From an uncultured cyanobacterium (GTDB lineage: Bacteria > Cyanobacteriota > Cyanobacteriia > PCC-6307 > Cyanobiaceae): a DNA stretch of 57,730 nucleotides. The stretch spans positions 1 to 57,730 of the forward strand of contig CAIJRN010000017.1 of NCBI GenBank assembly GCA_903823115.1. Reading direction: 5' to 3'. The translations under genes and the position numbers were made by a program. Below, one piece after another: positions 13,589 through 57,446 of this stretch (its first letter is position 1; each line of letters starts with the position of its first letter). The notes below the pieces were generated by a model that was given only the letters and a program-made list of their open reading frames with translations, was not told the DNA's origin and ran no database searches.

Positions 13589-14401
13589 TCAGATATATTC
13601 CTTGGTCTTTGCGTAGAGTATTTTTCCACAATTAAGAGGAAGCAAGCTTAGTCCTTTTAATGCGTACCAGCTCAGGCTTCGCTCTATTGCCGGCAGGTCT
13701 CCGCTCCACTCTCTGAATACTGCAACCCAAAGCTGGTTATGTCTTAGCAAGTGATGACAAATCCGTGTGCGCTGCACAGCAATCCCCTCCCTGTTCATGC
13801 ATTCAGCAAGAAAACGCTCTGGATGCAGTGACTTTCTCGCTTCAAGATTCGAATCAAGCAGCTTGATTCTTTCACAATATTTGTCCATAACCACGGAAGA
13901 GCCAAATCCAAACCGGTCATTAAGTCCATGCCAGTTATCATGAACTGGAACATAAAGGCAGTTGGCATCAAGGCTGGATAGCCTTTCAATATTGGAGCCG
14001 TAGAATAGATTGTCATAACGGAGTCGAAAAACCCAGTCGTATCTGCTGCCACTTATTTTTTCATGCTCTGACTTGATTTGATTTGCTTTGTGAAGACTTC
14101 GTAGCTGAAGCCAGTATGCCCGCAATGGCCCTCCACTGTGCCAAGGATGATGGTAGATTTCATGGTCAGAAGAATGCTCTTTGATAAGAGGAACTATTAG
14201 GCTTTCGTCCTCTAAAACAATCTCAGTAAAAATGCTCCTTGGTATCTTTGAGGAGTCGGAGTCTTTCGGAGCGTGACCAAAAATATCAATTTTCGTTATT
14301 CCATACTGATTCTGCAGTGGCCGCAGGACGTGCTTCTGGAATGAGTGGAATGTTGAGCTGAAGCTTCTTGCCTGGCCGGAGAAGCATAATGCAATTTTCA
14401 C
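13589..14401 (-). CDS. Uncharacterised glycan-locus protein, possibly a glycosyltransferase
   Basis: About 270 residues from GTG 14401, which begins right at the first strand (VKIALCFSGQARSF). The SGQ.R start, IDIFGHAP, the acidic YDWVFRLRYDNLFYG stretch and the late SSVVMDKYCER recall poorly characterised bacterial and plant proteins thought to be glycosyltransferases. I could not place it firmly in a family. AT-rich codon use separates it from the GC-rich genes around it. It lies just downstream of a glycosyltransferase pseudogene. Confidence 0.6.
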   Translation of the reverse strand: MKIALCFSGQARSFSSTFHSFQKHVLRPLQNQYGITKIDIFGHAPKDSDSSKIPRSIFTEIVLEDESLIVPLIKEHSSDHEIYHHPWHSGGPLRAYWLQLRSLHKANQIKSEHEKISGSRYDWVFRLRYDNLFYGSNIERLSSLDANCLYVPVHDNWHGLNDRFGFGSSVVMDKYCERIKLLDSNLEARKSLHPERFLAECMNREGIAVQRTRICHHLLRHNQLWVAVFREWSGDLPAIERSLSWYALKGLSLLPLNCGKILYAKTKEYI

Positions 14402-14563
14402 GAAATGAATAAAACAAGGCGAACTATGCAAGATCGAAAACTAGCCAACAGATGAGCAGAAAACCAAGAAATCAGGCTCAAAGGAAAGAAGCCAAGCTCA
14501 CTTATCCATCTACTCCATATTTGTTCATAAACTTTTAAATGTTTGTTCGCTAAAAAATGGTTT

Positions 14564-15085
14564 TCAGAGTACATCAACTCTTGCTCGAGCTTCGTTCTCC
14601 AGATTCCTACACCACTGCAGATCATGGAGCACCAAGCGGATCTCCGCTGCCAGCGAGCTCGGCTCAAGCGGCACTGCCATGGCCCCAGACACACTGTCGG
14701 CAACGATGTCGACCAGACCGCCAGCGCAGAAAGCCACCACGGGGGTGCCGCAGGCATGGGATGCGAGGCCGGTGTTGGTCAGGTTGACTTAGAGGTAATG
14801 GATCACAGACACATCGGCGGCGGCATAACGGTGCAGGATGAGGTCGTCTGAAAGGCGGCCGATGTATTGGATGTGGAAGCCGAGATCGGGCGGCTGGGGA
14901 GGTCGGTCTTGGCCAAACACATCCAGCTCCGGCAGCTCCACCAAGATGCGGGCCACCTCCGATAAAGTCCAGGTGGACAGGCCGATCGGGTGGGGATCAC
15001 CGTGATCGGCCAGTCGACGATCAGGGCACTGAGGCGGGCCCAGACGGTCAGCCAGTGTGGCGGCAATCACAAGACCGCCAGCTGC
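14564..15085 (-). pseudogene. Decayed partial copy of a GT4 glycosyltransferase
   Basis: Pieces of the intact GT4 at 15756-17108 are recognisable in order: HWLTVWARLSALIVDWPITVIP, then after a 1-base frameshift near 14990 PIGLSTW, then with about 45 residues missing LDVFGQDRPPQPPDLGFHIQ and AAADVSVI, then an in-frame TAA (about 14791) where the intact copy has Gln, then NLTNTGLASHACGTPVVAF and GGLVDIVADSVSGAMA. The N-terminal half is absent; homology begins right beside the Uma2 gene. It is non-functional and likely arose by duplication followed by insertion or deletion. Confidence 0.85.
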
Positions 15086-15086
15086 C

Positions 15087-15734
15087 TCACCCCGCCCAGA
15101 TCTCAGCAAGCTGCAGCTGCAGCCCGGGGAAATCCGCAGTGGCCTCCAGGATCTGGATCTGATCGAGGCGCTGGGGCTCACCACTGGCGGGCCAGACCTC
15201 CACGGCCTGCTCCTGGGGCGACAGCAGCCAACCCAGGCGGGCTCCATTGGCTTGGTAAGCCGCCATCTTGTTGCGCAGAGCCGTGAGGCCGCGGGGGCCT
15301 TCGTCGCTGGGGCTGGCCAACTCCGCTACCAGATCGGGGCAGAGGGGGGCGAAGCCACGACGCTCATCTGGACTGAGGGCCTGCCAGCGATCCAGGCGGA
15401 TCAAAGAGGCGTCAGGGCTGAAGACCGATCCATCGGGGAGGCGGAAGCCAGTAGAACTGTCGAAGGCCTTCCAGCCCCCCGCACGATTGGCGAACACCTT
15501 CAGCTGGAAGAACAGCTCTCCATTTCGGGAGCCAGTTTCGCTGCCTGTAGGCGTCATCGCGATCAGCCGACCATCCGCATCGAGTTCCAGTACCGCCTCG
15601 CGGTTCTCGGAGCACAACAGCTCAAACTGCTCCGGTGTGAGCCGCAGATCGGCAGGAAAGCGCAAGGATGCACGAGCATCAAAGGATGCTGATGATGCGC
15701 TGTGGGATGGGGCTGGGCTGGTGGTGAGGGTCAT
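15087..15734 (-). CDS. Uma2-family protein (DUF820, PD-(D/E)XK-like nuclease fold)
   Basis: 215 residues from ATG 15734; GTG 15740 is an alternative. The Uma2 features are LTPEQFELLCSENREAVLELD with the early Glu, LIAMTPTGSETGSRNGEL, SFVFSPDASLI-like SVFSPDASLIRLDRW, PDLVAELASPSD with the Glu, and GLTALRNKMAAYQANGARLGWLLSP with the Lys. The family is very abundant in cyanobacteria and has a restriction-endonuclease-like fold; its biological role is not known. Here it sits between a GT4 pseudogene and the intact paralogue, 21 bp from the latter. Confidence 0.88.
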   Translation of the reverse strand: MTLTTSPAPSHSASSASFDARASLRFPADLRLTPEQFELLCSENREAVLELDADGRLIAMTPTGSETGSRNGELFFQLKVFANRAGGWKAFDSSTGFRLPDGSVFSPDASLIRLDRWQALSPDERRGFAPLCPDLVAELASPSDEGPRGLTALRNKMAAYQANGARLGWLLSPQEQAVEVWPASGEPQRLDQIQILEATADFPGLQLQLAEIWAG

Positions 15735-15755
15735 CTCCACAGGCCTGCGGTGAAT

Positions 15756-17108
15756 TCAGCGTAGCGGGAATGTTGAGGAGCTTTTTTGGGCAGCACGTTC
15801 AAGGGCCTCCCCGTACACCTCCGCATAAAACCCCGCCACCCGCGCCGGATCCCAGAGCCGCTCCGCCCGCTGCCGTGCCGCCGCCCCCAACTGCCGGCGC
15901 CGCTGCGGATCCTCCAGCACCCAGCGGATCGCCGCCGCCAGCGAACCCGGATCAAACGGCTCTGCCAGCGCCCCGGTGATGCGGTCATCGACGATGTCGA
16001 CCAGGCCGCCAGTGCGAAAGGCCACCACGGGGGTGCCGCAAGCGTGGGCTTCCAGGCCCGTGTTGGGCAGGTTGTCCTGGCGGGAGGGAATCACGAACAC
16101 ATCGGCGGCGGTATAAAGCAGGCGCAGGCTGAGGTCGTCATGCAGGCGGCCGCTGTAATGAATGGGGAAGCCGAGATCGGGCGGCTGGGCAGGCCGGCTC
16201 TGGCCGAACACCACCAGCTCCAGCCGCTCCAGCGGCGTGCCAGCCACCTGAGTGCGAAGGCGCTGAAGGGCTTCCAGCAACAGGTCTGCTCCCTTGCGGG
16301 GATCGGTGGTGCCGCCCATGGCGCCGAACAAGACCAGCGGACGGTCGGCTGGCAGGCCCAACAGCGCCCGCGCCTGGGCCTGATCGCAGGGGGCCCACAC
16401 ATTGAGGTCGATCGGATTGGGGATCACCTTGATCGGCCAGTCGCCCATCAAGGTGCTGCGACGGGCGCAGTCCGCCAGCCAGTGGCTAGGGCAGACGAGC
16501 TGCATAGGTTTGCCAGCCGGCCGGCGCCACGTGCGCTGCTTGCGCAGCCAAGTGCGGCGGTTGAGGTCGGGCCCTGCTTCATGGGCGGGGCGGCTGGCGG
16601 GGCTGTAGCCCTTAGCGAAGCGCTCATCGCTGCTGGCGGTTTCGCCGGGCAGGGGTGGACTGGTGTAGTGCTCCGCACCGCAGAATGCCCACTGGTCGTG
16701 AAGGGTCCACACCAGGGGCATGGGCAAGCGCCCAATCTCTTCGATCGAAAGCGTGGAGAAGCCGATCCAGTGGAGATGCACCAGATCGCACTCCCCTCGC
16801 TGAAAACGCATACTTAAATCAGTGCCAAGGCCGGAGGAGGGCCAAGCAAAGGAGTGCAGCACTGGATTTCCCGTGCGGAAACCTCGGCAGATCAACGCTG
16901 TTAGGCGAGGATGGATTCGTGACCAGAGGCGACTCTGTTGGATGCCACCACCGATCACTGATGGGTCGTCGCTCTGGCGGTTGATCACCCGCATCTGTGA
17001 CTCAAGCCCATGGGTGGCGCCGTGCTCCACCAGACTGCGATAAATGCGGTAGGCGGCGCGAGCGGCGCCGCCGCTGATGTCGGTCGCGTTGACGTGGAGG
17101 ATGTTCAA
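15756..17108 (-). CDS. Glycosyltransferase family 4
   Basis: 450 residues from a TTG at 17108, which overlaps the upstream methyltransferase stop as TTGA and gives the expected N-terminus LNILHVNATDISGGAARAAY. The longer upstream frame lacks protein-like content. The N-domain has VHLHWIGFSTLSIEEI and TLHDQWAFCGAEHY; the linker is VIPNPIDLNVW; the C-domain has LVLFGAMGGTTDPRKG and the donor motif NTGLEAHACGTPVVAF. The ISGGAARAA start is common in cyanobacterial GT4 enzymes of exopolysaccharide loci. A broken paralogue lies at 14564-15085. Confidence 0.87.
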   Translation of the reverse strand: MNILHVNATDISGGAARAAYRIYRSLVEHGATHGLESQMRVINRQSDDPSVIGGGIQQSRLWSRIHPRLTALICRGFRTGNPVLHSFAWPSSGLGTDLSMRFQRGECDLVHLHWIGFSTLSIEEIGRLPMPLVWTLHDQWAFCGAEHYTSPPLPGETASSDERFAKGYSPASRPAHEAGPDLNRRTWLRKQRTWRRPAGKPMQLVCPSHWLADCARRSTLMGDWPIKVIPNPIDLNVWAPCDQAQARALLGLPADRPLVLFGAMGGTTDPRKGADLLLEALQRLRTQVAGTPLERLELVVFGQSRPAQPPDLGFPIHYSGRLHDDLSLRLLYTAADVFVIPSRQDNLPNTGLEAHACGTPVVAFRTGGLVDIVDDRITGALAEPFDPGSLAAAIRWVLEDPQRRRQLGAAARQRAERLWDPARVAGFYAEVYGEALERAAQKSSSTFPLR

Positions 17109-18022
17109 CGCTTGGGGCTCACAACGCTCAGCAGCTTGCGGGGATAGTGCAAGGGGCGACTCACGGCCAGCTGGGCTCGATAGCGCAAGGGTGTGATGTG
17201 CCGTGATCGCCACTCGTGCCAGGAGAACGACCGCTGGCTGCGTTTCTCCATCGCCCGCAGACGCGGCCAATCGGGCTGAAGCACCTGAGCTCGGCGATAG
17301 AAAGTCGCGTGACTGCCCTCGCAAGGTCCGAGAACTTCCAGGCCCAGGGCCTGGCAGAAGGCGTCAAAGCTGTAGCGCAGGTGGAAGGTGCAAGGTAGGT
17401 GGCAGAGGACAACCGGGTAAAAGCAGTTGGCGATCAGCAGGTGGCCACCAGGGCGCACCGCATCCACCATCGCCCCCAGCAGCGCGAGAGGATCACTGAC
17501 ATGTTCGAGTACATCGGTACTCACCAGCACGTCAACGCTCTGGGTGCTGAGTTGAGGAACAAAGCGAATATTTGGGAACGGCAAGCAGCTCAATACACCA
17601 TGTCGAGGCGGGTAGGGCTCGCAGATGCTGATCTCGGCCTGTGGCAGAGCTGCTGCCAGCAAGCGGGCCAAGGTTCCGAAGCCTCCGCCGAAATCCAATA
17701 CTGATTGTGGATTCAGGCCAGCAATCGCTTCTGTTATGGCATACCGATGGACCATCGAAATGGAATCACTTTCAGTATACAACCCATTCAGGATCCAAAC
17801 AGGATCGCCATAGAATGATGAGATACGTGATGGATCAAGCAGCCTGTTGTCGCACCCATGCTTAAGCCATGCTTCATCAACAAGCTGCCAGAGCCTTTCA
17901 ATCGATGGTTCCTCATTAAATCGACCCACAAGCAGGCATAGGTCACTAGATTCTTCTCCAATGCCATCGTGAGCAACAATTCTGACCGCCATGAGATTGG
18001 ATTCTATATCTTTTGTAGGCAT
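17105..18022 (-). CDS. Class I SAM-dependent methyltransferase
   Basis: 305 residues from ATG 18020-18022. The SAM-binding motif I is VLDFGGGFGTLARLLA, followed by ISICEPYPP, VDVLVSTDVLEHVSDPL (motif IV region) and VRPGGHLLIANCF. This is the classic Methyltransf_23-type arrangement. In the polysaccharide locus it probably methylates a sugar precursor or the chain. It overlaps the upstream methyltransferase by 19 bp and the downstream GT4 by 4 bp. Confidence 0.82.
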   Translation of the reverse strand: MPTKDIESNLMAVRIVAHDGIGEESSDLCLLVGRFNEEPSIERLWQLVDEAWLKHGCDNRLLDPSRISSFYGDPVWILNGLYTESDSISMVHRYAITEAIAGLNPQSVLDFGGGFGTLARLLAAALPQAEISICEPYPPRHGVLSCLPFPNIRFVPQLSTQSVDVLVSTDVLEHVSDPLALLGAMVDAVRPGGHLLIANCFYPVVLCHLPCTFHLRYSFDAFCQALGLEVLGPCEGSHATFYRRAQVLQPDWPRLRAMEKRSQRSFSWHEWRSRHITPLRYRAQLAVSRPLHYPRKLLSVVSPKR

Positions 18023-18930
18023 ACAAGCAGGGTGTGCCCTTTGATCAGCTTCCTGCCGCCGAGAGCCAGCATTGATCTGAATAAAGGCAGAGATAGGCGG
18101 TTAAAAACAAGTCGTCTCGCGGTTCTCCCGGCTGATGCCTCAAAAGCTTCGACCCAAGACCCCATAAACCAATCCACATGATAAGGCGCCAAAGGCTCAA
18201 AAGCCACATCAATAACTCGGGCTGGCAGTATCTCTTCAAGAAAATAGAAGGCTTCCTTGCTCCAGTGAGTCATGTGATGAGGTGGCTGATCAAGTAGATC
18301 ATTATGCTCAGGATCCATTCGCCGCACGACTTCAGAATTTGGAACGGACAGAATTAGACAACCATCTTGCTTCAATAACGCAAGAGCTTGTTCAAGAAAG
18401 CTTTTAGGATTGGGAAGATGTTCTAAAACCTGAAAAGCACAGACCGCGTCAAAGGATTCAGCATGGTTAGTGCCTAGAGATCCCAAATTCTGTTCAAAGA
18501 TTGTGAAACCCATATGCCTTGCTGCTTGAGCCCCTTCATTGTTGAGCTCAACACCGAAAATGTCATTCCCACATGCTTGTGCCTGCTTAAGAAAAGCCCC
18601 TCTCCCAACACCAACTTCTAAAATCTTGTGCTGACTATTTTGGCTGTGTTTTCTCAAGAGTTGAAGAGCGTATCTAAATTCCCACTTCTCCTCCATGTAG
18701 TACCAGGGAAATTTCTGGAGCTGCAAATAAAGGCTCTCTTCTCCAGCCGCAGTAGCTGGGGTGTAAAAGCAAAGGCCAGATTTGTTATCACTCCAATACT
18801 GAACTTCTGCGGCTGAGCTTTCAGGCTCCCAATCAACCCCTAGCTCCTTCCGCCATCGGGAAGAAATGGCCTTGGCGTCGATAGCCTTTATGAGGGTACA
18901 ATCATCAGAACCGGAAAGGGGGCCAATCAT
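18004..18930 (-). CDS. Class I SAM-dependent methyltransferase
   Basis: 308 residues from ATG 18930. Motif I is ILEVGVGRGAFLKQAQ, then IFGVELNNEGAQAAR, FDAVCAFQVLEHLPNPKSF and LKQDGCLILSVPNSE. The later HHMTHWSKEAFYFL is frequent in glycan-locus methyltransferases. The N-terminal approximately 90 residues (SDNKSGLCFYTPATAA) resemble the substrate-side extension of bacterial sugar methyltransferases. AT-richer than the GT4 downstream. Substrate not known. Confidence 0.82.
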   Translation of the reverse strand: MIGPLSGSDDCTLIKAIDAKAISSRWRKELGVDWEPESSAAEVQYWSDNKSGLCFYTPATAAGEESLYLQLQKFPWYYMEEKWEFRYALQLLRKHSQNSQHKILEVGVGRGAFLKQAQACGNDIFGVELNNEGAQAARHMGFTIFEQNLGSLGTNHAESFDAVCAFQVLEHLPNPKSFLEQALALLKQDGCLILSVPNSEVVRRMDPEHNDLLDQPPHHMTHWSKEAFYFLEEILPARVIDVAFEPLAPYHVDWFMGSWVEAFEASAGRTARRLVFNRLSLPLFRSMLALGGRKLIKGHTLLVCLQKI

Positions 18931-19930: not shown

Positions 19931-20842
19931 TCAAATTAAAAAGACATCACTATATTCTAGCCAAGATGTTTTAATCGTTGACGGAAACCATTCTCCTTGA
20001 CGCCATCCTGCCCAATATCGTGGGGCTAAATAGCGAACATTAGGATAGAATTGCCTGCCATACCAAGCGGCCCACCATGAAAACGTACTCGCCGAAAGGA
20101 TACCACCCCCTGAGCACTGAGTCATTAGGAAGAAATCGTCAATCTCTGAGCCCCTAAAGATTGAAACCATGGGATGTGATCCAAGCCGGTCTTCGGCAAA
20201 GGGGCGATCATCGGTACATACAATAAAATGAGCTCGCTTATCAGCTCGAGCGATCTCATTCATTTGCTGCTCATACCACTTAAATGGCAAGACAGCCGGG
20301 TGGTCACTCGATGGCCAGCGTAAATAGTCTCCACGGCGGAGATGCAGAAAATAGGGATTGAAACCTCGAGAGATTACATTAGCTTCGATCCACTCACGTG
20401 CATTCACCAAAAGCTCGATGCGTAATGGGCATTGTTCGCAAGAGACCTTTTCAAGAATGACCTCATCCTGAAAAAAACCATCGAGTAATGCTATCTTATT
20501 GCAAAGCCCTTGAGAGAATGAAATAGAAAGATTATCTCCATCACGCATTTCTGAAATCACACTCAACAACTTCCTGCCATTAGCCAGTTTTAGAGCTCTA
20601 CTTCTTCCAAGCCTACTAAAAAGTTTTTCAAGCAGGCTGCCCATCTTTGAGGCAGCAAGATGGTGCGCACTTGGTTGCAAGGATACAAGCAAACTTTGGA
20701 GCCCAATGCATATAATCTGAGCTCTTGGGGCCGCACTGCGTGCTGCTAAATACTGAAAGAACTGATTCCCGAGCCTACCATTTTCGAAGATTATGATGTA
20801 TTTGAGGCAATTTAAGCTAGGACATGTCAAGCTCTTAATCAT
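19931..20842 (-). CDS. GT11-family (alpha-1,2-fucosyltransferase-like) glycosyltransferase
   Basis: 303 residues from ATG 20842, which overlaps the end of the FkbM pseudogene by 8 bp; a TTG two codons upstream is possible. GT11 motifs are ENGRLGNQFFQYLAAR, FLHLRRGDYLRW (HxRRGDY), PFKWYEQQMNEI, FIVCTDD, and STFSWWAAWYGR. It should transfer L-fucose or another GDP-6-deoxyhexose from the product of gmd and fcl. AT-rich codon use unlike the GC-rich locus average suggests horizontal acquisition. Confidence 0.86.
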   Translation of the reverse strand: MIKSLTCPSLNCLKYIIIFENGRLGNQFFQYLAARSAAPRAQIICIGLQSLLVSLQPSAHHLAASKMGSLLEKLFSRLGRSRALKLANGRKLLSVISEMRDGDNLSISFSQGLCNKIALLDGFFQDEVILEKVSCEQCPLRIELLVNAREWIEANVISRGFNPYFLHLRRGDYLRWPSSDHPAVLPFKWYEQQMNEIARADKRAHFIVCTDDRPFAEDRLGSHPMVSIFRGSEIDDFFLMTQCSGGGILSASTFSWWAAWYGRQFYPNVRYLAPRYWAGWRQGEWFPSTIKTSWLEYSDVFLI

Positions 20843-21777
20843 AGACAATGGTGCACCAAGGAGGAATAAAAGACATATTCCTAAATCCTACTATATTCTG
20901 CCAGGCAAAGCATTCAACTGCTTCGCTGTATCTATTCATGTCGACCAGTCTCTTTCCAGGCGCAAGCTTGAAGAGTTTGAAACCATAAGTGGTATATAGC
21001 AAGGAGAAAAAGTCTCTAAAATAAGTCTTTGAGTCAATATTGCATCCCCCAAATTCAAACTGGAGTGCATCTACAAAAGGGCATCTCGAAAAATCAGCTA
21101 TCGAAAGAATTCGTTCTCAAGCTGAGGCAGATGCGGGAATGAGTCTCATTTGCTGCGTCCCGCTGGAACTCGAATTTTTCGAGGTAGCCTAAACACGATG
21201 AAAGCACATGAGCCCCCTCCCTAAACACCTCTAGCTCATGCCCTTCAACGTCGACTTTTAAAAAAGTAATTCGGCTAATACCCTATCTTTTGATCCAATG
21301 GTCTAAAGTTGTTGTTGTGACAATTTCATTCTGATCAAGGCTTAGGCCATAGTGATCAATATCTTGGTCGTAAAAGGATGCTAATCCAGAGCCCTCTCTA
21401 TCCTTATATAGCTGCTTGCTGCCCTCATTTGAGGATAAGCCAAAAGGATGGTACAGAATATTTCCTTTATACTGATCTTGAAGAGCGCAAAGACTTGGCT
21501 TATGATTAATCGATGGCTCAAAGCAATGAATTTCTGAACTTTTGCCAAGACTTGCTGCCAGAAGTGCTGAGTATTCCCCTTTATTTGCGCCAACATCCAG
21601 CACAATGGAATCCGTGTTCATTATTGTATTTACAATATCAACGACCAGTTCGACTTCGTCGCACAGCCCATAAGAACCATAAACTTTGCCATACAAGAAA
21701 TCTCTTTTATAGGCAATCCGCTTGGAAAGGCGAGATAGTAGTCTATTGGCAAGATTCACTGCTATTCTTTTTCTCAT
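20835..21777 (-). pseudogene. FkbM-family methyltransferase, broken by a nonsense codon and an insertion
   Basis: The 5' part (ATG 21777, ATGA overlap with the DUF268 gene) has the SAM site IVLDVGANKGEYSALL and HCFEPS. After DHWIKR an in-frame TAG (21283-21285) interrupts it; the same frame then continues with GISRITFLKVDVEGHELEVF, the FkbM core. A 111-bp element (21079-21189) then breaks the reading frame. A further +1 frame resumes with FVDALQFEFGGCNIDS and GFKLFKLAPGKRLVDM down to a TAA at 20835. The complete FkbM protein is therefore represented but cannot be made. Confidence 0.85.
21079..21189. mobile_element. Miniature inverted-repeat element or IS remnant in the FkbM gene
   Basis: 111 bp bounded by imperfect 16-bp terminal inverted repeats: GGGCATCTCGAAAAAT at 21079 and, inverted at the other end, GGCTACCTCGAAAAAT (13 of 16 identical). 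It interrupts the FkbM frame between the DVEGHE core and the QFEFGG segment, where homologues have only a few residues. No coding capacity for a transposase. A target duplication is not obvious (A-rich flanks on both sides). A non-autonomous element or the fused ends of a deleted IS is the likely nature. Confidence 0.6.
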
Positions 21778-22538
21778 TTTGTTAGATGGTAGCAACCAAT
21801 CCCAAAACAGGATCGCTTCTGATTGGTGAAGTTTTCACCATAGATATACGCTTTATCTTGGACAGTAAAATGAGAAAACTGGCTTAGGAACAAGTCCTCG
21901 TTAAATGATCGGTGAGCGTTAAAGTATGTTTTGGGGTTATCTTCAATTGGCACAGATATATAGAGATTTCCGCCTGGTTTAATCACTCTTGCCAGCTCAT
22001 TGCAGGCCTTCAATGATCCGAGTGGATCCAGGGGGTCACCATAGCGCCCCAGTCCTATATGCTCAATGACGCACAATGAGGATAATGACTCAATGCTGCT
22101 ATCTGGAAATGGCAAGCCAAGGATTGTTCCTTGAACAAACTTGATTGATTTCATTTCTAAACTGAGTGGCCTAAGGTCAACCATAGTGAGAGGAACCACC
22201 TTGGAGAGAAGAGCCACATACTTGTGGTGAGAGCCAATATCGACATGTGATCTTGGCTTGGCCTTTACAACAAGATCAAAAGCCCAGCTGTCTTGATAAA
22301 AGTAGGTTGGCTCAATGGGCGTAACTGATGTTGCATCCCAGATACACGGATACAGCACAATCGATTCTATTGAATCAGAGGCGGATGTCTTCTCCTGAGT
22401 GAGCTGTTTGTATGCCCACAACGAGGAGCGGAATCGGTGCCATGCCTTGCGCACTCTAAGAGATTGCTTAACTGGCGCTAATGATAAAGAAATGAGCTTT
22501 CTTGCTTGGCTAGGCAGCTTAACTTGAACAGATCTCAT
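21774..22538 (-). CDS. DUF268 methyltransferase-like protein
   Basis: 254 residues from ATG 22538. The DUF268 signature is visible: YFYQDSWAFDLVVKAKPRSHVDIGS (in pieces), MVDLRPLSLEM, LSSLCVIEHIGLGRYGDP followed by DPLGSLKACNELARVIKPGG and LYISVPI. The glycine-poor motif HVDIGS replaces a classical SAM motif I. The family is found in glycan loci and is regarded as methyltransferase-like. It begins 3 bp after wzt and overlaps the FkbM pseudogene as ATGA, so it is in the exporter operon. Confidence 0.82.
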   Translation of the reverse strand: MRSVQVKLPSQARKLISLSLAPVKQSLRVRKAWHRFRSSLWAYKQLTQEKTSASDSIESIVLYPCIWDATSVTPIEPTYFYQDSWAFDLVVKAKPRSHVDIGSHHKYVALLSKVVPLTMVDLRPLSLEMKSIKFVQGTILGLPFPDSSIESLSSLCVIEHIGLGRYGDPLDPLGSLKACNELARVIKPGGNLYISVPIEDNPKTYFNAHRSFNEDLFLSQFSHFTVQDKAYIYGENFTNQKRSCFGIGCYHLTK

Positions 22539-22541
22539 GGG

Positions 22542-23870
22542 CTATACAACTGCAACGGTCCAATCGGCATGAACAAGAAACTTTCCGTGGCTTGAGGGAG
22601 GGATCTCCCCGGTACCATAAAAATCTCCAGCCTCAACCTTCAGCCTCTTGGCTTGGCTGATACAATCAAGGAACTCTCCGTCTTTAATCAGTGAGTAGCT
22701 TATTGAGTAATCACCAGCTGGCAAAGGTAGTCTTGAAATTCGTACTCTTAAAGCACCTTTACTAGAGGTAGCGTCAAAGGGCTGACCTGTCATCCGATTG
22801 TGAGTGAGGAAAAGAGAGTCGCCGAGAGCATCAAGAATCTGAACGCTACAGATAACTCTACTTAGATCATTGGGCCGACCATCCTTGGACTCAAATGAAA
22901 GTTCTATTACCAAGTCTTCGCCGCTAATAGCCGAATCAGCAACAGAGCCGGTAAAGCTCACTAAGTTTATTCCGGTTATAAATAGCTTTCCATTTCCCTT
23001 TCTCGGCTTCGCCGAGAGGGAGCCTGGTTGATTTTCATCTTGATCAGCACTAAGGTAGGTTTCTATTGAGGACATCACATTGCCTGTGAAGCGGATGCTT
23101 CCTGATTGCATTAGAATGCAACTCTGGCAGAGTTTTTGAATCGCAGCCATCTGGTGGCTCACAAACAGCACCGTACGCCCCTCCCTATCCGCTACATCCT
23201 CCATCTTCCCTAGACACTTCCTCTGAAAACTGGCATCCCCCACCGCCAACACCTCATCCACCACCAGAATCTCCGGCTCCAAGTGTGCCGCCACCGCAAA
23301 GGCCAGCCGCACATACATGCCGCTGGAGTAGCGCTTCACCGGCGTATCGAGAAACTGCTCCACCTCGGAGAAGTCGACGATCTCATCAAACTTCAAGCGG
23401 ATCTCTCGCCGCGTCATCCCCAGGATGGCACCATTCAGGTAGATGTTCTCCCGGCCCGTAAGCTCCGGGTGAAAGCCCGTGCCCACCTCCAGCAGGCTCG
23501 CCACCCGGCCGCGGAGCTCCACCCGGCCCGTGGTGGGTTCAGTGATGCGGCTGAGGATCTTCAGCAACGTGCTCTTGCCCGCCCCATTGCGGCCGATGAT
23601 CCCCACCCGCTCACCGCGGCGGATCTCGAAGCTGACATCCTTGAGAGCCCAGAAGTCTTCCTCGGATTCATGACGGATACGGGCACTCTCCTGGCGAGCA
23701 CGCGTCAGCTGTCCCGCAAGGGTGAACGGGTTAGCCCAGCGAGCCATCGTCGAACAGCGGTCGACGATCAGATCTCGAAACGTATCTTGGCGGTGCTGTT
23801 GTTCATGCTGAATCTTGTATTTCTTTCCTAGGCCTTCAACTCTGATGACAACGTCGTTATCGCTTGCCAT
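22542..23870 (-). CDS. wzt: ABC-type polysaccharide exporter, ATP-binding subunit Wzt
   Basis: 442 residues. The ABC domain contains Walker [10 protein letters not shown] (93-101), the signature YSSGM (181-185), Walker B ILVVDE (201-206) and the switch His239. The extended segment between residues 20 and 75 is characteristic of O-antigen and teichoic-acid exporters. A C-terminal domain (about 270-442) with [12 protein letters not shown]-like beta strands ([26 protein letters not shown]) is the carbohydrate-binding module that recognises the modified non-reducing end of the chain. It lies 3 bp after wzm. The methyltransferases downstream could supply the cap it reads. Confidence 0.92.
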
Positions 23871-23873
23871 TGC

Positions 23874-24746
23874 TCAAATCACATCCACAAATGATTTTTC
23901 TGCTGCTCTGAAACTCAGTACGCCAGCGACGGATAGTAAAGTGACGACGACTAGTGAGAGACCGATGCTCATGGGATTCACGACAGCGCTCTTGCCAATA
24001 ATTGCCCAACGGAAACCTTCGATGACGCCGACCATCGGATTAAGACCATAGACAAACTTCCATTCGGAAGGAACGATCGTCGTTGAATAAGCAACTGGGC
24101 TGATATACTGACCAATCTGGACCATGAAGGGTACCAGCAAGGTTAAATCACGGTAGCGGATCGTCCAGGTCGCCAGCAACAGACCCAAGCCCATGGAGAA
24201 GCAAAACACCACGAGCAACCAAAAGGGCAGAGTCAGCATTCGCCAGGTAGGCCAATAATGATACCAAATCATCATGGCAGCGAGGATCAAGAACGACACC
24301 GCGAAATCCACCAGACAGGTGATTACCGAAGCTGCCGGCGCGATCAATCTTGGGAAATAAACTTTACTGAACAGTGCCGAGCCACTGAGAAGGCTACTGG
24401 AGACGCTAGTGAGGGCACTGGCAAAGAACTGCCACGGCAACAGGGCTGCAAACACCATGATGGCGTAGGGGGCATTGCCATCAGTTGGTAAGTTGGCCAG
24501 TTTTCCAAAAATGACTGTGAAAACCACCATCGAAAGAAAAGGCCGAATCACCGCCCAGCCCACCCCGATGGCCATCTGCTTGTAGCGCACCGCCAAATCG
24601 CGCCAGGCCAGGATCACAAACAGCTCTCGGTAGCGCCAGAGATCCTTCCAGTACTGCTTCTCGATCCGATTGGGCTCGAGTACTAACCACTGCTGACTGG
24701 GGTCACGATTCTTGGATCGTTGAAACCTACTCAAGCTTTTTAGCAT
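23874..24746 (-). CDS. wzm: ABC-type polysaccharide exporter, permease Wzm
   Basis: 290 residues, ABC-2 membrane type. After a cytoplasmic N-terminus with YWKDLWRYRELFVILAWRDL and the family motif VRYKQMAIGVGWAVIRP, six hydrophobic segments follow: around MVVFTVIFG, YAIMVFAALLPWQFF, ITCLVDFAVSFLIL, FWLLVVFCFSMGLGLLLA, the YISPVAY region, and the C-terminal LSLVVVTLLSVAGVL. It pairs with Wzt (3 bp downstream) to move an undecaprenyl-linked polysaccharide across the inner membrane. Confidence 0.92.
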   Translation of the reverse strand: MLKSLSRFQRSKNRDPSQQWLVLEPNRIEKQYWKDLWRYRELFVILAWRDLAVRYKQMAIGVGWAVIRPFLSMVVFTVIFGKLANLPTDGNAPYAIMVFAALLPWQFFASALTSVSSSLLSGSALFSKVYFPRLIAPAASVITCLVDFAVSFLILAAMMIWYHYWPTWRMLTLPFWLLVVFCFSMGLGLLLATWTIRYRDLTLLVPFMVQIGQYISPVAYSTTIVPSEWKFVYGLNPMVGVIEGFRWAIIGKSAVVNPMSIGLSLVVVTLLSVAGVLSFRAAEKSFVDVI

Positions 24747-25102
24747 GGCATCAGAGAGTTGAGGAGCTGATTGAGCAGGTCATGCCGCTCGAACAAATCG
24801 GCGGCCAAGGTACCAAATCCTGTAACATATCTACCCTGCCGGCCGGGCCAGATTCGCTGGCAAGGAGACGCCAGGGTGAGGATTAGTTCATCTGCGCGAG
24901 CCAGGCTGATCAGATCCACGAAGGTATCGATATTCAATGCACGGCTTGTCACGTCTGTGTTGCCATGAATGGGCTTTCCATTGGTTTGTGGAAGCTGCTG
25001 TAATCTCAGCAGGTTAATGCCGGAAAGTTTTTCGGCGGTAGCTGTCTGCACATCGGCGGAGTCAGTCCATAGAACGACATCTTTGTCCCACACGGATCTC
25101 AT
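24740..25102 (-). CDS. Small hypothetical protein, possible fragment
   Basis: 120 residues from ATG 25102, with an in-frame stop just upstream. It overlaps wzm by 7 bp. The sequence VVLWTDSADVQTATAEKL, then DTFVDLISLARADELILT and ending FGTLAADLF, resembles the C-terminal half of GT-B enzymes such as NodZ-like fucosyltransferases (a TDS strand, then a DLxxLxxAD helix). This is a weak resemblance. It may be a truncated remnant of such a gene or a short protein of unknown role. Confidence 0.45.
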   Translation of the reverse strand: MRSVWDKDVVLWTDSADVQTATAEKLSGINLLRLQQLPQTNGKPIHGNTDVTSRALNIDTFVDLISLARADELILTLASPCQRIWPGRQGRYVTGFGTLAADLFERHDLLNQLLNSLMPC

Positions 25103-25175: not shown

Positions 25176-26141
25176 CTAGCTAGCAATTGCTAACTTCCAG
25201 TAAAAGATCTTACTGATATGGTTGCCGTAGGCTTTTTTCAGCGAAGATCTCATGGCTCGATTGGCAAGCCAACGCAAGAGTGCATTGCTCTCAATTTTGC
25301 AGAATTCTTTTCGGATGCAAGCAGCCTCCTCAGGCTCTGCCGAGTTGACCCAGCGCAACAGCAAACGGCGCTTGTTGATATTGAGAATTTGACTTCTCCA
25401 TCGATCGTTTAGAATGACGCTCACTGTCAGTGCGCTGTGGATGTGTACCTTGAATTGGTCAACCCAGGACTTTGTGCTATAAAGAGATCTGGGCCGGATT
25501 CGATATATGCTCATTGATCGGTGAAGAAAGCAGAGTTCGCCACTTTTCAATGCTGACACACAGAGCAACCAGTCTGCCCCAGTGTTGTCATGCAAGCCAG
25601 CTCCGCTGAAGTCGACACGAATCTCCGGAGTATGGCGACAGAGGATAGAGCTGCTGGCTGATCCAACAGCCATCTGCTTGACAAAGTGCCTGAGCTGGTA
25701 GCGTGATTCACCATTTCCGCTTCGGGGCTTCAGCGTATCACCCTCCAGCAGATCGCTCTGATTCATCACAATCGAGAGCGATGAATCGCCATCCAGCCGA
25801 TCTACCTGGATCTGCAGCTTTCTAGGGTCTATCCAGTAATCATCGCCATCGCAGAGGGCCAGGAACTGGCCACGGGCCATTGCCACCAGCGGTGAGGCTG
25901 GATTGAGGCCTTGGCCATGTTGATTGGTGGTCTGAAATACCACACTGATCTGGTCTGGGTATTGCTCCACATAGCGGTGCAGAATAGCTGGAGTGCCATC
26001 CGTGGAGGCATCGTCGTGTACCAGGATTTCCACCGCAAAGCTTGTCTGTTGGGACAGGATCGACTCAAGGCATTGCTCGATCCAGGGCTCCACGTTGTAA
26101 GCACGAACGAGCACGCTGACTCGTGGCTCAGCTTTAGCCAT
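25176..26141 (-). CDS. Glycosyltransferase family 2
   Basis: 321 residues from ATG 26141, overlapping the upstream FkbM stop by 8 bp. GT-A/GT2 core: VSVLVRAYNVEPWIEQCLES, VEILVHDDASTDGTPAIL, and FLALCDGDDYWIDPRKL, with the DGDD metal and donor site. LHDNTGADWLLCV and FLHRSMSIYRIRPRS follow, as in many rhamnosyl- or glucosyltransferases of O-antigen clusters. The first half is GC-rich and the C-terminal half AT-richer. Confidence 0.86.
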   Translation of the reverse strand: MAKAEPRVSVLVRAYNVEPWIEQCLESILSQQTSFAVEILVHDDASTDGTPAILHRYVEQYPDQISVVFQTTNQHGQGLNPASPLVAMARGQFLALCDGDDYWIDPRKLQIQVDRLDGDSSLSIVMNQSDLLEGDTLKPRSGNGESRYQLRHFVKQMAVGSASSSILCRHTPEIRVDFSGAGLHDNTGADWLLCVSALKSGELCFLHRSMSIYRIRPRSLYSTKSWVDQFKVHIHSALTVSVILNDRWRSQILNINKRRLLLRWVNSAEPEEAACIRKEFCKIESNALLRWLANRAMRSSLKKAYGNHISKIFYWKLAIAS

Positions 26142-26922
26142 TGCTCTTTTCCCTCAGCAACCAGTTGGTCATACCTCGGTAGCGGCTGTACTCTTCAACC
26201 ACTCCATAGCCCAGCGGTTGCAGAACGTCCAGGAGTTGCCTCTGCTGCCCATCTCCCACCTCCACAAACAGCAGCGGCCGGTCGCGCTCGAGCACCGGCA
26301 ACAGACCTTCAAGGCAGGCCAGCTCATGCCCCTCCACATCGACCTTGATCAGCTGTACCGGCTCCTGGAGCCACTCACTCCCCACGACGCAACGGCACAG
26401 GTGCTCAGCGACCACCCCTGCACGACTGGGCATCTCCTGCTCCAGGCTTGACCCACCCAGATTGCTGTGGGGTTGGCGGAGCCTTGCCTCGCCATTGCGA
26501 TTCGACAATGCCAGCTGGTGCGTTTTAACCTTGTGCTGCAGACCGTTGATCGCCACGTTGAACTGCAGGATCGCAAAAGCCTGCGGATTGGGTTCGAAGG
26601 CGATCACCCGCTGTGTTCGCTCCAGCCCTGCCAACCAGAGGCTGTGGTTGCCGACGTTGGCGCCCACATCCACCACTGTGCCCCCTTGGAAGTGGCGCTC
26701 GATCAGGGCCAGCTCCTCCGGTTCATAGATCCTGCCTTGGGCGTGTTCCCCCTGCACGCTGTCGCCACGATCAAGCACCAGCAGGCTGAGCTCTCCATGG
26801 GTGGTCTGCACCCGATGCACGCCGCCTTCAGCCAGTTCCGAGGGCCTGATCGGGCTGACGCGAACGCCAGCCGCCCGCAGCCAGCTGTGGCCGCTGTCGA
26901 GGAGTGGGCGGTGCCAGGTCAT
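26134..26922 (-). CDS. FkbM-family methyltransferase
   Basis: 262 residues from ATG 26922, coupled to galE by ATGA. SAM motif VVDVGANVGNHSLWLAG, then VIAFEPNPQAFAIL, LALSNRNGEARL, and the FkbM core LIKVDVEGHELACLEGL followed by LLFVEVG. This is a complete FkbM enzyme. It could replace the function of the pseudogene at 21 kb, though their targets may differ. Confidence 0.87.
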   Translation of the reverse strand: MTWHRPLLDSGHSWLRAAGVRVSPIRPSELAEGGVHRVQTTHGELSLLVLDRGDSVQGEHAQGRIYEPEELALIERHFQGGTVVDVGANVGNHSLWLAGLERTQRVIAFEPNPQAFAILQFNVAINGLQHKVKTHQLALSNRNGEARLRQPHSNLGGSSLEQEMPSRAGVVAEHLCRCVVGSEWLQEPVQLIKVDVEGHELACLEGLLPVLERDRPLLFVEVGDGQQRQLLDVLQPLGYGVVEEYSRYRGMTNWLLREKSNG

Positions 26923-56057: not shown

Positions 56058-57446
56058 TCAGTCGAGATCCGGCATGGCCAGGGTGGGCTCGGCCTGACGG
56101 TCGATGCCCTTCTCGAAACCAGCGGCAGCGGCGCGAGCGCGGCCGGCATGCCAGAGGTGACCGACCAGGAAGAAGAAGGCCAGCACGAATTGCACTGAAG
56201 CCAACCACTGGCGGATGTTGACGAAGTTCACCGAATTGGGCTCGGTGATGATGCCGCCCACTGAGTTCAGGGAGGCGTTGGGTGCGTGGGTCATATACTC
56301 GGCTGCACGACGCACCTGCCAGGGCTGGATGTCGTTCTGCAGCTTGTCGAGAGACAGACCATTGGGGCCGCGCAGGGGCTCCAGCCAGGGACCGCGGAAG
56401 TCCCAGAAGCGCATGGTTTCACCACCGAAGATGATCTCGCCTGTGGGGGAGCGCATCAGGTACTTGCCCAGACCGGTGGGGCCCATGGCCGAACCGATGT
56501 TGGCGCCGAGGCGCTGGTCACGCACCAGGAAGGTGAAGCTCTGGGCCTGGGAGGATTCGGCGTTGGTGGGGCCGTAGAACTCCGAGGGATAAGCGGTGTT
56601 GTTGAACCAGATGTAGGCCGAGGCGATAAAGCTCATGAAGCTCAGAGCGCCGAGGCTGTAGCTCAGGTAGGCCTCACCATTCCAGATGAAGGCACGACGC
56701 ACCCAACCGAAGGGCTTGGTGATGACGTGCCAGATGCCACCGAAAATGCAGATCAGACCGATCCAGATGTGGCCGCCGATGATGTCTTCCATCGAATCGA
56801 CGCCGATGATCCAACCTTCACCACCAAAAGGGGCGCGGGTGAGATAACCGAAGATCACACCAGGGCTGAGGGTGGGATTGGTGATCATACGGACATCACC
56901 ACCACCGGGGGCCCAAGTGTCATAGACACCGCCGAAGAACATCGCCTTGAACACCAGCAGCAGCGCACCGACTCCCAGAAGGATCAGGTGATAGCCAATG
57001 ATGTTGGTCATCTGGTTCTTGTCGCGCCAGTCCTGGGAGAAGAACGAGGAGTAGTTCTCCAGGATCTCCGGACCACGGATGGCGTGATAAAGGCCACCAA
57101 GGCCAAGAACGGCCGAACTGATCAGGTGCAGAACACCGACCACGAAGAACGGGTAGAGGTCGGTGACCTCGCCACCCGGACCTACGCCGTAGCCGAGAGT
57201 GGCGACGTGCGGGAACAGGATCAGACCCTGTTCGTACATGGGCTTGTCGAAGGTGAAGTGACTCACCTCGAACAGCATCATGGCGCCGGCCCAGAACACC
57301 ATCAGACCAGCGTGGGCCACATGGGCACCCAGCAGACGGCCGGAAAGATTGATCAGGCGAGCATTACCGGCCCACCAGGCATAGCCGGTGGAGTCGAGGT
57401 CCTTGCCCCCAACCGAAATGAGACCGGAATTAAAGGGCGTTTCCAC
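56058..57446 (-). CDS. psbC: Photosystem II CP43 chlorophyll apoprotein
   Basis: 462 residues from GTG 57446, the standard psbC start, 17 bp before the end of psbD. (M)[55 protein letters not shown], the large lumenal loop with [31 protein letters not shown] and [19 protein letters not shown], which contributes a ligand to the Mn4CaO5 cluster, and a last helix [21 protein letters not shown]. Inner antenna of PSII, in the thylakoid membrane. Confidence 0.98.

Follow-up and report, generated by a model that had tools for sequence, protein, structure and literature searches.

A type II MITE with IS5-family ends in a broken FkbM methyltransferase gene of a cyanobacterium, and a possible helical phasing of lengths in its family

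Duplication of 4 bp of target DNA is a trait of the IS5 group, and Nezha is reportedly a MITE of cyanobacteria. Engineered short IS50 and IS1 elements, in work of 1994 attributed to Goryshin and to Lane, are said to transpose in a manner that depends on how the spacing of their ends relates to the helical repeat of DNA. According to the part of a review considered here (PMC10969869), type II bacterial MITEs are mobilised by IS, and the ISSoc2-derived MITEs of Synechococcus are mentioned among them. The element that we describe shares several features with the type II MITEs of that part of the review, namely a length below 500 bp, the lack of a transposase, terminal inverted repeats (TIRs), a target duplication, similarity to an IS only at the ends and the occasional inactivation of a gene, but it differs from them in its own ends, in a length of about 111 bp throughout the genus and in length classes spaced by ~10.5 bp across bacterial groups. 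As for ciliates, the internal eliminated sequences (IES) of Paramecium have lengths with a ~10-bp periodicity, and the portion of that paper used here (PMC3464196) recalls from experiments on transposon ends that, in DNA near or below the persistence length, pairing two ends on the same face costs twist energy unless their spacing fits the helical repeat.

We analysed a stretch of 57,730 nucleotides from an uncultured cyanobacterium (hereafter the window), which is contig C17 of a genome of 3.42 Mb that is assembled in 86 contigs and 99.8% complete. An earlier note, made from the sequence alone, had read an FkbM pseudogene with a short TIR element in it, a reading that is supported by the broken frames, by the copies of the element and by an IS with matching ends. 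The remnant is one methyltransferase gene with two breaks, an in-frame TAG, which that note had also named, and a frame-shifting insert (Table 1). From its ATG, the frame is open up to the TAG and then open again as far as the insert, which shifts it; past the insert, homology to intact FkbM proteins continues in another frame, which ends in a TAA. The gene thus lacks an intact methyltransferase reading frame, on account of the TAG and the insert, while both pieces are otherwise still open. Its family is clear from the 5' piece, which matches PF05050 at 2.6e-16 when an X is put at the stop, and whose first 170 residues match TIGR01444 at 6.3e-10 (39.7 bits against a cutoff of 37.7). The 3' piece on its own matches no Pfam family. 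Since both pieces align with the same three intact FkbM proteins (L212, L216 and L217), the 5' piece at 30–37% and the 3' piece at 34–36% identity to their C-terminal part, they belong to one gene that was broken by a nonsense codon and a frame-shifting insert. The enzyme has probably been lost.

Table 1. Coordinates of the features discussed, in the window unless another contig is named.
Feature	Position	Strand	Details
Two SAM methyltransferase genes, same cluster	17105–18022, 18004–18930		
Glycosyltransferase family 11 (GT11) gene, open	19931..20842	-	PF01531 2e-12; ATG at 20842
FkbM-family methyltransferase pseudogene, whole remnant including insert	20835..21777	-	PF05050, TIGR01444, alignment of both pieces to intact FkbM proteins
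FkbM 3' piece, different frame	20835..21078	-	terminates TAA 20837–20835; translation and homologue alignment
Left flank AAAA	21075..21078	.	possible remnant of 4-bp target duplication
MITE, imperfect TIRs, IS5-family ends	21079..21190	.	112 bp; aligned copies
Left TIR GGGCATCTCGAAAAAT	21079..21094	+	family consensus GGGCACCTCGAAAAAT
Right TIR	21174..21190	-	one extra base relative to closest relatives
Right flank AAAC	21191..21194	.	possible duplication remnant, 3/4
FkbM 5' piece	21191..21777	-	start ATG 21777–21775
In-frame TAG stop of FkbM gene	21283..21285	-	reading frame
DUF268/methyltransferase-like gene, open, upstream neighbour of FkbM	21774..22538	-	PF03269 5.2e-12
ABC exporter ATPase, Wzt C-terminal domain	22542..23870	-	PF00005, PF14524
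ABC-2 exporter permease	23874..24746	-	PF01061
Second FkbM-family gene of cluster, open	26134..26922	-	PF05050 5.3e-15
Related elements of genome G439	C31:39794–39936, C16:50572–50735, C99:9260–9444, C28:1615–1820		

The boundaries of the insert, which holds no transposase gene, were set from aligned copies and give a length of 112 bp; the 111 bp of the earlier note is right within one base. The TIRs match at 13 of 16 positions, as that note had counted, and at up to 16 of 16 in relatives. With our boundaries the flanks are AAAA and AAAC, with the 111-bp boundary AAAA and TAAA, and a 4-bp target duplication would be matched in three of four bases at best. An assembly or sequencing error, with the FkbM frame intact in the organism, is hardly credible as an explanation of these lesions: an insert of this size with homologous copies in other genomes is impossible from base-calling error, and it sits well inside the 57.7-kb contig, away from its ends.

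Copies of the insert were searched for in 42 genomes of the genus, its own and 41 others, at E ≤ 0.001. Seven genomes matched, weakly or partially for three of them (G001, G033 and G063) and strongly for the own copy and for three related genomes, so that the other copies which the earlier note had proposed to look for do exist. These 11 strong copies, in three of the 41 other genomes (four in G010, five and one partial in G023, one in G062), are 86–92% identical to the insert, across the whole of it or the greater part. Close copies end together in the alignment; 4-bp repeats (e.g., TACA, TAAT, TGTA, TGTG or CATA) flank several of them but not others. The end pattern is more widespread, being found with at most one mismatch in 25 of the 42 genomes, against none of the 42 for a reversed control pattern. 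The genus loci examined contain 33 distinct TIR-to-TIR elements, 26 of them 109–112 bp long, whose interiors have diverged into seven similarity groups; 18 have a perfect 4-bp duplication, 10 match in three of four flank bases and five more poorly.

Other observations were made on the family. The insert holds a palindrome-like core AATGAGTCTCATT at 21138–21150, kept in the middle of most of the 33 otherwise diverged elements of the genus, which is perhaps a binding site. The own genome carries a second, divergent MITE (C53:131960–132069), which lies in a stretch identical (100%) to one in another genome (G016:C19) across the 451 bases compared, despite a collection with one genome per species. 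At L017 (~1501–1607, G010:C123), a MITE copy is found between direct repeats of more than 20 bp that themselves contain MITE-end-like sequence, as if the element and its flank had been tandemly duplicated. Four loci of a single genome, G462 (L136, L289, L305 and L350), hold 36-bp structures in which two TIRs are 4 bp apart and flanked by matching 4-mers, and which could be either minimal elements or palindromic remnants. The plasmid records searched gave no match to the MITE, and viral contigs contain 13 stretches with the exact end, which are included among the loci of the length analysis below.

An autonomous IS with the same ends, which the earlier note had suggested looking for, exists and is an IS5-family element of ~1.25 kb. 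Five such elements of 1248–1253 bp were found, one each in G019, G028, G029, G030 and G061, and their target duplications are exact over 4 bp in four cases (TTAT, TTCA, GTCA and ATAA) and TTAA/TCAA in the fifth. The transposase of G061, the one protein of the five that was profiled, matches NF033581 with 268.7 bits (cutoff 140) and contains DDE_Tnp_1 (PF01609) and DUF772 (PF05598). The partner thus resembles IS5-family IS (NF033581) in its 1.25-kb size, its DDE transposase with DUF772, its short inverted ends and its 4-bp duplication, unlike the window element, which is without a transposase and has little in common with such IS besides the ends. At E ≤ 1e-20, 22 of the 42 genus genomes match the G061 transposase, some with only relatives near 30% identity or fragments.

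As for the own genome, five contigs break 120–140 bp inside an IS with these ends. The end of C55 and the start of C46 are both flanked by AGAA, the end of C47 and the start of C31 both by TGTT, and each pair has one of either IS end; for C56 no partner was found. Such matching flanks and complementary ends suggest that the genome has two full IS copies, one at C55/C46 and one at C47/C31, which the assembler did not place. The assembly itself matches the IS body at E ≤ 1e-20 in nothing except 45 residues at C19, and no intact transposase gene is assembled.

The MITE and the IS have little in common besides the 16-bp ends, the remaining matches being short and at chance level. An origin of the MITE by simple internal deletion of the IS is not supported, since in the five copies compared the alignment is confined to the ends and a few bases more. 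This confinement of likeness to the ends is that of a type II MITE, as delineated in the part of the review considered here (PMC10969869). We conclude that the insert is truly a mobile element, namely a type II MITE that belongs to an IS5-family IS and sits in a decayed gene. Such MITEs are probably mobilised in trans by the transposase of the IS. The copy in FkbM, whose ends have decayed, is likely to be immobile now.

It is improbable that the insert is instead a domesticated regulatory or structured-RNA element and not a selfish MITE. A palindrome-like core similar to GAGACTCATT, a motif chosen after inspection of the sequences, is present in 25 of the 33 genus elements, mostly at the same position, against 1.6 in shuffled interiors, and most of the relatives folded have low folding energies compared with shuffles, as a domesticated element might. 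However, folds differ among copies and owe much of their energy to the pairing of the ends, the fold of the window copy is only slightly favoured over those of shuffles (z -1.6 and -2.3), promoter-like sites are at chance level, and the perfect target duplications of 18 of the 33 elements point to transposition. We accordingly rejected both forms of this reading: the structured-RNA form after folding 13 strands, whose interiors fold differently, and with no Rfam match at the insert in a search of the window, and the regulatory form since promoter- and terminator-like sites occur at the shuffled level.

The gene order on the minus strand is ABC-2 permease, Wzt-like ATPase, DUF268, FkbM remnant and GT11. 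The stop of DUF268 and the start of FkbM overlap as ATGA, and the GT11 start overlaps the 3' end of FkbM by 8 nt, so that to judge by these overlaps the three genes look translationally coupled. Premature termination of FkbM would then also remove its presumed coupling to GT11, the own frame of which is open. The GC content of the three genes (0.41–0.45) is below that of the whole window (0.605) and of four measured neighbours (0.51–0.63), for which reason they look like an acquired cassette. Both flanking genes are open and match their Pfam families, which bears out the earlier note's statement that they are intact, and its proposal of a loss of surface-sugar methylation with retention of the exporter is plausible, if putative. 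Methyltransferase genes left in the cluster are the two SAM methyltransferases, the methyltransferase-like DUF268 gene and the open second FkbM gene.

Elsewhere in the window, fragmented minus-strand frames at 14398–15250, adjoined by a Uma2 endonuclease gene (15087–15740), resemble the glycosyltransferase at 15756–17324 (e.g., PPQPPDLGFHIQYIGRLSDDL compared with PAQPPDLGFPIHYSGRLHDDL) and are perhaps a second pseudogene, a decayed duplicate of that gene. An orphan frame of 120 residues (24740–25102, minus strand), with the ABC permease on one side and a GT2 gene on the other, matches no Pfam family at E ≤ 0.001 and is perhaps another gene remnant. An IsrR antisense RNA, which according to its Rfam description regulates isiA expression, is found at 56843–57029 on the plus strand (RF01419, 163.9 bits). 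Its presence, together with that of the exact family end in named Synechococcus and Cyanobium sequences, suggests a picocyanobacterial host.

Whether the MITE killed the gene or arrived in a dead one depends on the order of the two lesions. It is quite possible that FkbM died first, either by the nonsense mutation or because a foreign cassette that was not needed decayed in another way, and that the MITE inserted afterwards into sequence already dead. The TAG exists besides the insert, the cassette is AT-rich, the targets of the MITE family are mostly AT-rich 4-bp sites, and no close FkbM was found in the 41 other genomes of the genus. The intact allele that the earlier note had hoped to find in sister strains was sought in a collection with one genome per species, where the search returned distant relatives only. 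In the 42 genus genomes, tblastn with the 170-residue 5' piece gave four distant matches besides the own gene (27–30% identity), and a sample of 388 genomes of the class had two besides the own gene at E ≤ 1e-12 (28% and 36%). Against an early death stands the fact that decay is not far advanced, both pieces being open apart from the two lesions, although this is not decisive.

The account that we favour is, as a whole, highly probable. In it, a sugar-modification cassette of low GC (DUF268–FkbM–GT11), placed downstream of an exporter of the Wzm/Wzt type, would hold a dead FkbM gene, struck by a nonautonomous type II MITE of ~111 bp and by a nonsense mutation, in either order, with the enzyme lost and the MITE copy now immobile. 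The MITE, which is without a gene of its own, would depend for its cut-and-paste movement on the DDE transposase supplied in trans by the 1.25-kb IS5-family IS, which would recognise the same 16-bp ends and duplicate 4 bp of a mostly AT-rich target. The weak points of this account are the window copy, with three of four flank bases and a 13/16 inverted repeat, the absence of an intact transposase gene from the own assembly, the slight likeness of MITE and IS beyond their ends, and the lack of a close intact FkbM allele among the genomes searched, which makes decay before the arrival of the MITE possible.

The lengths of the family were then compared beyond the genus. The exact end GGGCACCTCGAAAAAT was looked for in 84,980 genomes and found in at least 120 stretches, which among the matches listed lie in cyanobacteria (including Synechococcus and Cyanobium), many proteobacteria and a few others. 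TIR-to-TIR pairs shorter than 250 bp among these listed matches measure 59, 81, 90, 99, 110–111, 119, 128–132, 142–143, 150–152, 161, 164 and 206 bp. The helical-phasing hypothesis arose from this initial list and thus from part of the data on which it was tested. In a first set of 63 elements, which fell into 22 groups by interior similarity, the group medians have their largest Rayleigh statistic at 10.50 bp (nR2 12.2); ungrouped lengths peak at 10.25. The full set, for which genomes were hand-chosen from those with the end pattern among the matches listed, comprises 354 loci with 122 candidate pairs with complete flanks; 98 of these pairs match in at least three of four flank bases and were retained, and the other 24 were left out. 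The lengths of these 98 short elements, from several bacterial groups, tend to cluster in steps of about 10.5 bp, the helical repeat. Under a looser grouping threshold, group medians (n = 25) have a best period of 10.5 and group-lengths (n = 44) one of 10.6, five of the 44 group-lengths (e.g., 105 and 127 bp) falling outside a half-turn window that was drawn after seeing the data. When lengths are collapsed into 20 classes, the best period is again 10.5 (nR2 7.5), and the Monte Carlo p, which allows for any period from 6 to 20 bp, is 0.013. Three stricter selections give 10.5 in all three statistics, with class-level p of 0.010, 0.027 and 0.040; the best period is 10.5–10.6 bp in 12 of 12 statistics of this four-selection analysis and in four of five of the preceding full-set analysis.

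A search for exact-ended pairs (pattern length 71–131) returned none in 20 genomes, although the pattern does work when applied to one locus; variant ends, present in several of the 20, may be the reason.

It is possible, if rather doubtful, that this 10.5-bp ladder is an accident of common descent and internal duplications, such as 21-bp repeats, and not a helical constraint. Lengths are inherited within a lineage, as the narrow range of most genus elements indicates, and in genome G439 (host of L075, reached via a Halothiobacillus contig) related elements of 143, 164, 185 and 206 bp differ by exact steps of 21 bp, i.e., two helical turns, as an internal repeat would give. Moreover, the signal is weak to moderate on new groups alone: nine medians give nR2 2.75 (p about 0.06) with a best period of 13.9, and 12 group-lengths nR2 4.75 (p about 0.009) with a best period of 10.6. 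However, groups without detectable interior similarity have the same length phase, the collapsed classes remain best at 10.5 over all four selections, and leaving out one class at a time keeps the best period at 10.4–10.6. The 26 inward pairs whose flanks match poorly, with 18 distinct lengths among them, come partly from the same subfamilies as the kept elements; they have nR2 8.5 at 10.5 and a best period of 10.6. By contrast, control pairs show nothing at 10.5, whether on the same strand (24 pairs, 21 distinct lengths; nR2 0.59, best 14.1) or pointing outward (seven pairs; nR2 0.14).

We therefore lean toward a helical constraint on length. For short elements of about 60–260 bp, it is somewhat probable that the two ends are brought together by the transposase over a small loop of DNA, with the result that mostly elements whose length is in helical phase (steps of ~10.5 bp) amplify. 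An IS5-type transposase that synapses short elements through such a loop would favour amplification of in-phase derivatives, and this constraint would be the simplest account of the ladder. With similar, moderate confidence, we suggest that, in cyanobacteria and proteobacteria alike, the helix quantises the lengths of natural MITEs that depend on an IS5-family transposase, as in a helical-twist experiment run by evolution, and that pairing of the ends of elements as short as ~60–160 bp across a DNA loop sets the size classes open to a MITE family.

A length periodicity near 10.5 bp, as in ciliate IES, is thus present on all data and weaker on new groups alone. The IES of Paramecium, in the portion of the work used here (PMC3464196), are eukaryotic and excised by a domesticated piggyBac transposase, unlike these bacterial elements with IS5-family ends, and the filter would be amplification here but excision there. 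The literature searched, a partial coverage with subscription papers mostly outside it, yielded no report on this MITE family, none on natural bacterial MITEs with phased lengths, and no occurrence of the end sequence GGGCACCTCGAAAAAT as text, and the parts of PMC4132750 and PMC3660474 that were covered hold nothing on MITE lengths in helical steps. As read from the length series, the family resembles the engineered IS50 and IS1 elements in that end spacing relative to the helical repeat would matter for transposition; it differs in that those are constructed laboratory series and this is a natural series across species.

The breakage of FkbM is itself ordinary, a routine strain-level variation of a sugar cluster, and it is the length series of the family, not the broken gene, that raises interest. 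If the phasing is real, it would be a bacterial counterpart to the length periodicity of ciliate IES and would explain why these MITEs keep lengths of 99, 111, 130, 143 or 151 bp despite diverging interiors. The geometry of the IS5-family synaptic complex would then be testable with simple constructs, and a length-phase rule could also aid the detection of MITEs.
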